Part shown: positions 36,029 through 37,926 of the stretch, piece after piece | Layout: each line of letters begins with the position of its first letter | Numbering within the stretch: position 1 is the stretch's first letter | Source of the DNA: Salibacter halophilus | GTDB lineage: Bacteria; Bacteroidota; Bacteroidia; Flavobacteriales_G; Salibacteraceae | Reading direction: 5' to 3' | DNA length: 64,000 nucleotides | Assembly (NCBI RefSeq): GCF_008806325.1 | Contig: NZ_WACR01000005.1 | Location: forward strand, 62,001-126,000 | Translations under genes and position numbers: made by a program | Notes under the pieces: model-generated | Told to the model about the DNA's origin: nothing | The model's database searches: none | What the model saw: only the letters and a program-made list of their open reading frames with translations

Positions 36029-36634
36029 TTATTTATTGTCGTTATAACGTTTGTTCACTTCGTCCCAGTTAATCACATTAAAGAATGCGTTGATGTAATC
36101 TGGACGTTTGTTTTGGTATTTGAGGTAATAAGCGTGCTCCCACACATCAAGACCTAAAATGGGTTCTCCATCACAGCCAGAGTTTGGCATAAGTGGATTA
36201 TCTTGATTTGGTGTTGAGCAAATTTCTAATTTACCACCATTGTGAACACATAACCATGCCCAACCAGATCCAAAACGCGTAGCGGCTGCATTTGAAAACT
36301 CTTCTTTGAATTTGTCAAATGATCCAAATTGTTCGTTGATTGCGTTTGCAATATCTCCTGATGGTTCTCCACCACCGTTTGGAGACATCACTTCCCAAAA
36401 CAATTTGTGATTCCAAAAACCGCCACCGTTGTTGCGAACGGCTGTGTTATCTACATGGTTTGCTAATAAGTCTTCGATACTTTTGTTTGCTAAATCACTA
36501 CCTTCGATTGCTGCATTTAGTTTTTTCGTGTAACCAGCATGGTGCTTTGAATGGTGTATCTCCATTGTTTGAGCATCAATATGTGGTTCTAATGCATTGT
36601 AATCGTAAGGTAATTTTGGAAGTTCAAATGCCAT
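36029..36634 (-). CDS. sodA: Iron/manganese superoxide dismutase
   Basis: A 201-residue cytoplasmic dismutase. Metal ligands fit the family: His 27 (MEIHHSKHH), His in [13 protein letters not shown] (about 81), Asp in [11 protein letters not shown] (about 163) and His four residues on. No signal peptide is present. Mn versus Fe cannot be settled by eye, though the GGGFWNH region is closer to Mn enzymes. A possible -7 promoter box TAAGTTTG lies upstream (36676-36683, minus strand). Confidence 0.92.
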
Positions 36635-36683: not shown

Positions 36684-36800
36684 TATGTTCACAACTTATT
36701 TTAAAAGCGTTTCCCATAAATAAAGGTTATAGTTTGATTAATAAAAACCATTTTAAACGTAAACCCTGTTTTAAACTGCCTGATTCCTGTAACACTACAA

Positions 36801-37053
36801 ACCTGAGTTCGATTATTATTTATAGATTCAAATATTCAAAGAAGCCATTAGACAAGGCTCTTTTGCGAAAATTTAGCGGGCTAAATTGAGCAAAAGAAAC
36901 GCAGTATTAGTGGCTTCTTTGGAAACCCCACATATAAACAGCCATTTTCTTCCTAAAAGCTCGTCAATATAGCCCGCTATACTTTCCTTGCTTTTAGTCG
37001 AAACTCACTATTTATATGTGGTTTGAATCCTAAACTATAAATCGAACTCAGGT
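36801..37053. mobile_element. MITE-like element with 13-bp TIRs and 5-bp target duplication
   Basis: A 253-bp non-coding element bounded by perfect 13-bp terminal inverted repeats, ACCTGAGTTCGAT at 36801-36813 and ATCGAACTCAGGT at 37041-37053. TACAA flanks it on both sides (36796-36800, 37054-37058), the mark of a 5-bp target duplication. Inside are perfect nested palindromes: AATTTAGC/GCTAAATT (36870-36887), CCACATATAAA/TTTATATGTGG (36928-37021), CTAAAAGC/GCTTTTAG and TATAGC/GCTATA (36968-36981). The cores TAGCGGGCTA and TAGCCCGCTA are reverse complements of each other. No transposase is encoded. The remaining bases of the gap 36635-37173 hold nothing else I recognise. Confidence 0.75.
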
Positions 37054-37173
37054 TACAAAACACAGCGATTGAATTCCTAACTAATGAACAGGTTAAAAGT
37101 TTTTTGATTTTCTCTTACTCCAAATGAAAAAATACATAGTAGTTTTACAGCCTTTTTACAGATCTAATAAGCA

Positions 37174-37926
37174 ATGGCATTACAGGAAGAATTCAAATCA
37201 CAGGGAGATTTTCTATTTAAAAACAGAAGTTACATCCCATTGATCGTGCTGCTCGTAGCACTAATACAAATATACTTTCAGGCAAATAAAGGACTCGACT
37301 CGCATTGGCCTTTTAGTTATAACGGGCTAGAAATAACCGGTATCGTAGTAGCATTTATCGGTTTCTTCATTCGTGTGATCACGATTGGTCAGTCAGCAAA
37401 AAACACTTCAGGTCGAAATACTTCTGAAGGTCAGGTTGCAGATCACCTCAATACTTCAGGTATTTACTCAACTGTTCGTCATCCGCTTTACGTTGGTAAC
37501 TTTTTCATGTGGTTAGGTCCGGCCTTAATGACTCAAAACCTCTGGTTTGTCCTGGCATTCATCCTTTTCTACTGGGTTTATTACGAAAGAATCATGTATG
37601 CTGAGGAACAATTCCTGAGAGGAAAATTCAAAGAAGCCTACCTCAACTGGTCAAAGGATGTTCCGGCATTTGTCCCAAAACTATCAGCCTACCGTTCAAG
37701 CGATCTCGACTTCACATGGAAAAAGGTGATCAAAAAAGAGAAAAATGGTTTTGCAGCTATCTTCATCGTATTTGCCGTTTTCAGAGCCGTACACGATTAC
37801 GGAATTTACGGAAAAGCTACTTTTGAAGCGTGGATTTACACTGCTGCTATTGTTGGTGTCATCATTTACCTCATCATCAAATACACGCGTAAATTCACGC
37901 ATTTATTTGATGAAGATGATCGCTAA
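37174..37926 (+). CDS. Isoprenylcysteine/phospholipid-type membrane methyltransferase
   Basis: A 250-residue integral membrane protein with five or more helices. The SAM-binding signature of ICMT/PEMT-like enzymes is clear: STVRHPLYVGNFFMWLG followed by YYERIMYAEEQFLRGKF. The substrate is unknown; bacterial members methylate lipids or small molecules. The two C-terminal helices after about residue 190 extend beyond the core domain. Confidence 0.82.
   Translation: MALQEEFKSQGDFLFKNRSYIPLIVLLVALIQIYFQANKGLDSHWPFSYNGLEITGIVVAFIGFFIRVITIGQSAKNTSGRNTSEGQVADHLNTSGIYSTVRHPLYVGNFFMWLGPALMTQNLWFVLAFILFYWVYYERIMYAEEQFLRGKFKEAYLNWSKDVPAFVPKLSAYRSSDLDFTWKKVIKKEKNGFAAIFIVFAVFRAVHDYGIYGKATFEAWIYTAAIVGVIIYLIIKYTRKFTHLFDEDDR

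Follow-up and report, generated by a model that had tools for sequence, protein, structure and literature searches.

The 253-bp element at positions 36801–37053 of the window (i.e. the whole 64,000-nucleotide stretch analysed, from contig NZ_WACR01000005.1 of Salibacter halophilus) is non-coding, mobile in appearance and strongly palindromic, and it raises the question of what selects such an interior: the transposase that moves the element, or something else. An earlier note, made from the letters alone, read it as a MITE and named a structured RNA as the alternative that would refute that reading. The MITE reading proves right, and the alternative is partly right too.

A MITE with IS982-type ends

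The element lies between two genes and is flanked on both sides by TACAA (Table 1). Its terminal inverted repeats (TIRs) are perfect, as the earlier note had claimed, over 14 bp and not over the 13 bp it gave. An open reading frame scan finds none of 60 or more amino acids inside the 253 bp, in line with the lack of coding capacity noted before.

Table 1. Features of the element and its neighbours; positions are those of the window.
Feature	Position	Strand	Basis or remark
Fe/Mn superoxide dismutase gene (neighbour, context only)	36029..36634	-	Pfam PF02777/PF00081; element upstream of gene
Left target site duplication TACAA	36796..36800	.	read from sequence
Left terminal inverted repeat ACCTGAGTTCGATT	36801..36814	+	IS982 type, begins with AC; ends shared with the IS982-family IS at G198:C8
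Hairpin module 1	36835..36924	+	outer stem, inner stem, apical hairpin TTTAGCGGGCTAAA at 36872-36885
Module 1 loop	CAAGGC 36853-36858 / AACGCAG 36898-36904	+	window sequence
Hairpin module 2 (same module, inverted)	36930..37018	-	R1 E = 0.015 over 74 kb; R3 E = 1.1e-8
Right terminal inverted repeat AATCGAACTCAGGT	37040..37053	-	inverted-repeat search
Right target site duplication TACAA	37054..37058	.	read from sequence
Phospholipid/isoprenylcysteine methyltransferase-like gene (neighbour, context only)	37174..37926	+	Pfam PF04191/PF04140

Six places in the S. halophilus genome carry the element, three of them in full (the window included) and three in rearranged or partial form. The other full copies are at C6:238060-238322 and C5:274824-275078 (97%), a deletion derivative is at C2:78376-78527 and a left-end fragment is at C4:163481-163528. 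Target site duplications (TSDs) differ among the copies (TACAA in the window, then TATAA, GTATA and TATAA), and the C2 copy shares TTAA. At C9:88905-89071 (L048), the inner hairpin segment of a copy is inverted and arm 2 is partly lost, as template switching within a palindrome would produce. In a check for an empty site, the congeners searched lacked the element, but their intergenic region is not alignable. A search of phages and plasmids with the window element gave no match, and a promoter and terminator scan of the region gave nothing above chance.

Relatives of the element are found at the level of the family (G004), the order (G039) and the class (G168, G198, G351 and G415), with 67–68% identity to the window element over the full length, where measured. 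Most have clear TSDs of their own (e.g. TATTA, TAATA and TAGTA) in other families. A search for the TIRs in ten genomes located two of them separated by 1027 bp in G198. This interval (G198:C8:42751-43777) encodes a frameshifted IS982-family transposase (PF13612; NF033520) between ACCTGAGTTCGATTA ends; the IS lacks a matching TSD, and its left end occurs a second time on a G198 contig end (L109). Members of IS982 mostly begin with AC, and their direct repeats are variable (PMC7335449). The G198 IS and the window element match at their ends alone, the interior of the element being the shared module described below.

The matching-TIR transposase that the earlier note proposed to look for thus exists in a relative, while the 32-contig draft of S. 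halophilus itself yields no IS982 transposase by PF13612 or tblastn. Mobility is therefore either past or dependent on a lost or unassembled IS, and the element in its own genome is either an orphan or one whose IS is missing from the draft. Judging from the matching TIRs, the TSDs and the copies, an IS982-type DDE transposase probably mobilized the element in trans, generating target duplications of 5 bp. Taken together, its size (below the roughly 300–600 bp that bound such elements), TIRs, absence of a transposase reading frame, dispersed copies and differing TSDs identify it as a MITE, and the rearranged and truncated copies, the relatives elsewhere and the IS982-family IS with the same ends bear out the earlier reading.

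Two kinds of short derivative were also seen. In G168 (L100, L102, L104 and L106), a solo 13-bp ACCTGAGTTCGAT with TATTA on both flanks looks like the scar of a deletion that ran from the subterminal TATTA of the element to its right target duplication. Remnants of 28–33 bp such as ACCTGAGTTCGATATAAAATACCATTCAGGT lie between target duplications in G168 (L103 and L307), G198 (L108), G388 (L057) and G415 (L092), and apparently arose when both hairpins were lost through internal deletion at TCAG..CTCAG, an event that has recurred.

One module in two orientations, selected as a single strand

The interior consists of two arms, each with a stem and a central hairpin, as had been noticed before. Nested inverted repeats pair 36800-36832 with 37022-37054, 36837-36850 with 36908-36921 and 36928-36949 with 37000-37021. 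Folding is far stronger than in shuffled sequences, both as DNA (z = -9.5; 0 of 200 shuffles as good) and as RNA (-92.3 kcal/mol, z = -11.0; 0 of 200). The two cores (36867-36889 and 36964-36986) pair with each other and are 87% complementary. The idea that they only make alternative structures was rejected and replaced: their reverse complementarity reflects a single module that is present in both arms, once in each direction. This module is 80–90 nt long and consists of a variable outer stem, a loop with CAAGGC opposite AACGAAG, an inner stem of about seven pairs, a second asymmetric loop and a TAGC-NNN-GCTA tip.

The identity of the two arms was recovered with covariance models. Model R1, for which arm 1 sequences of IS982-type (ACCTGAG) elements alone were used, also detects arm 2 on the other strand, with E = 0.0017 in G004 and the value given in Table 1 in the window. 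Model R3 was trained on a set that holds window arm 1 and one arm 2 sequence from G004 and excludes window arm 2; its E-value for window arm 1, a training sequence itself, is 1.6e-16, and that for window arm 2 is given in Table 1. Module 1 folds as RNA with z = -6.6. The sense strands of the window fold at -39.7 (module 1) and -32.7 kcal/mol (module 2), and their complements at -30.5 and -17.3 kcal/mol, respectively. Each arm is thus more stable as its own sense strand; alternative structures between the two cores may also form.

Covariation among module members is extensive. Across 28 aligned members, standard pairs make up 85% of the pair cells and both partners vary at 27 of 28 pairs; shuffles and slides stay far below this on the main measures. 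In 57 distinct members found by a core pattern, the outer stem, which lies outside that search pattern, changes on both sides at all 14 of its pairs and is 87% paired. Both alignments come from covariance-model fitting and so lean towards the structure; strand polarity was therefore checked by pairing the flanks through plain dynamic programming under a symmetric scoring scheme. On the CAAGGC strand of 90 modules, this gave 156 G-T against 18 A-C oppositions. When each assembly is represented by a single module, 31 assemblies have more G-T than A-C and none has more A-C than G-T. A double-stranded DNA cruciform would be expected to show the two equally, so the excess indicates that one strand folds by itself, either as RNA or as single-stranded DNA, both of which fit the asymmetry. 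The loops are conserved while the stems diverge. These data show that the module is selected as a single folded strand of one polarity.

This also settles how the alternative named in the earlier note should be read. It had envisaged a single copy fixed at this site with compensatory changes in its stems; the first half fails because the element is multi-copy, and the second half holds because the arms of this MITE are a conserved structured module. No Rfam family matches the module: the search returned chance scores below the gathering score only, together with a nearby RNase P gene and a tRNA. A literature search with the core strings of the module found no paper, and a description elsewhere in the literature is possible.

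The module in MITEs with unrelated ends

R1 was scanned against 395 genomes of the class and R3 was searched across the phylum. The R1 scan gave matches in further genomes, mostly in several copies each, and the R3 search added more. Several R1 matches (in G290, G081, G064, G309, G037 and G209) sit in elements with other TIRs. The end types and TSDs are: TACCAAATATATGTATAAAATAGTCC with TTA (G290 and G081, with variants in G371); GGGAACCTCTAATAATTCATT with TAAA (G064, again with two inverted modules); GGGAGGTTCTATAAATACATT with TCAA (G309, grouped with the GGGAACCTCTAATAATTCATT form); GAGCCTGTTTAAATTTTATTT with TAA (G579); GAGGCTGTTAAGGAA with TTA (G209); TAGAGCTAAATTGTGATAAAA (G037); and GAACTCATCTTGACTTTTT with ATT (G345). 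Most strong matches sit in elements of 100–330 bp that are flanked by TIRs and TSDs. As neither of these is part of the model, they validate the module matches independently. In G351, two module matches (L137 and L153) have no clear TIRs or TSDs and are either decayed MITEs or free modules. In G309, a module-bearing MITE (L118:1785-2197) directly adjoins an RNase P RNA gene.

An 858-bp IS in G579 has GAGCCTGTTTAAA ends, the TIR of the MITEs of that genome, and codes for a transposase of the IS5 family (NF033580), so that the module is associated with two IS families or more. The module is not derived from the IS982-family IS, and it is shown to be cargo of MITEs with the ends of other transposases, the IS5 family included.

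The core pattern AGGCNNAAAACRCAGNCATAGC occurs in at least 120 stretches of genome contigs. Among the matches listed are Saprospiraceae, Chitinophagales, Aquimarina and others, as well as assemblies of Proteobacteria, Vandammella animalimorsus and Acidovorax among them, with additional TIRs such as GAGCCTGTTCAAAATCT and AGGCGACGTTGAATAAGTCCTC. The module is thus common in Bacteroidota and is also found in Comamonadaceae and other Burkholderiales. Matches number 23 in V. animalimorsus, 35 in Membranihabitans marinus and 38 in one proteobacterial MAG. Plasmids of Cupriavidus, Mitsuaria and Comamonas match the Vandammella form of the module, with no annotated gene at the match. The 3.1-Mb genome of V. 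animalimorsus strain NML 03-0146 (G756; L168 and others) contains 92 GAGCCTGTTCAAA ends, many of them paired about 160 bp apart, and is thus densely seeded with module MITEs.

Possible roles and comparison with known systems

That the element is a MITE and that its interior is a shared module are the parts of our explanation that we hold with high confidence. What the module does is a more tentative matter. From the sequence evidence, we lean, well short of conviction, towards a role as RNA: in any transcript that crosses the element, the module might be recognized by conserved host machinery and make the insertion cheaper for the host. Candidate ways are protection or processing of the transcript, or counteraction of Rho-dependent polarity. 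An inverted pair would then supply one sense module for either direction of transcription. Module sense relative to flanking genes has no significant bias (24 versus 18 tandem cases, p = 0.44), hence there is no sign of host selection on transcript sense, which counts against this role.

The absence of an orientation bias also fits the main rival, which we consider nearly as likely as the RNA role although doubtful in itself: the module could work as single-stranded DNA, one strand folding during replication or transposition and being recognized by a structure-specific DNA protein, to the benefit of MITE copying. A primosome-type site, a host nuclease or an HUH/Y1 transposase are conceivable recognizers, with the same doubt. 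This rival accounts for the strand asymmetry as well as RNA does, and it agrees with the near-confinement of the module to transposon-like DNA elements and with palindrome-linked rearrangements (e.g. the inverted inner segment of the C9 copy). However, the transposases of IS982 and IS5 differ and use double-stranded ends, and we therefore know of no single-stranded DNA step that the two families share. Less probable again is that the module has no function, i.e. that one old MITE core spread horizontally and swapped its ends by recombination, its pairing being kept by palindrome repair or copying from its own strand. MITEs do spread between genera, perfect palindromes arise by template switching, and deletion and inversion derivatives exist. 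But intrastrand repair would be expected to perfect the palindromes; it would account neither for conserved asymmetric loops nor for a 31:0 bias of G-T over A-C, and it leaves the conservation of loops beside diverging stems unexplained.

Two simpler readings are contradicted by the data. MITEs derived from IS982 have been described (e.g. MITECca01 of Cardinium; PMC9769881), and the element could be what an internal deletion left of an IS982, with hairpins that are palindromic by chance; its interior, however, is not IS-derived, and the same module recurs with other TIRs and in another phylum, which makes this very improbable. Still less credit goes to a free structured RNA gene or cis-regulator fixed at the site: the compensatory changes in the stems would suit it, but it is at odds with the multiple copies with TIRs and TSDs, the absence from the congeners searched and the lack of an Rfam match.

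We judge it an even call whether the module represents a previously undescribed class of strand-specific structured elements, most likely RNA, that is carried by MITEs of unrelated transposases in Bacteroidota and Burkholderiales, acts in cis for MITE persistence and was converged on or exchanged between lineages.

MITEs are usually viewed as defective leftovers of a single transposon family. A conserved, covarying hairpin that recurs in two phyla and in MITEs of the IS982 as well as the IS5 family implies that the selector of the MITE interior is not the transposase, and a hairpin inside unrelated mini-transposons of two phyla suggests that it has a job of its own. The shared module, which has no Rfam entry, is a candidate structured RNA or single-stranded DNA motif and offers a testable handle on the success of some bacterial MITEs.

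Several known systems resemble parts of this picture. REP/BIME elements are mobilized by RAYT (Y1) transposases and consist of short imperfect hairpins, often in inverted pairs. The present modules are likewise imperfect hairpins paired in inverted orientation, but they are 80–90 nt long and lie inside DDE-type TIRs with target duplications of 2–5 bp; these TIRs and TSDs argue against REP/RAYT membership. Correia/NEMIS, ERIC and RUP are non-autonomous repeats that fold when transcribed; to our knowledge, each is tied to a single type of end and a restricted set of hosts, whereas the module spans TIR families and phyla. The put antitermination RNA of phage HK022 (PMC9378689) is alike only as a possible way of working, i.e. 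a nascent RNA that acts without a protein of its own. The closest counterpart of the element as a MITE is the pair ISCca4/MITECca01 of Cardinium (PMC9769881), where TIRs starting with AC are also shared with an IS982-family IS, the size is similar (about 240 bp for MITECca01; about 240–260 bp across the two systems), there is no open reading frame and copies are multiple. As a MITE alone, the window element adds a member to this known type. It differs in that its genome has no detected parental IS and in that its interior is not an IS remnant but two inverted copies of a module common to MITEs of other IS families.
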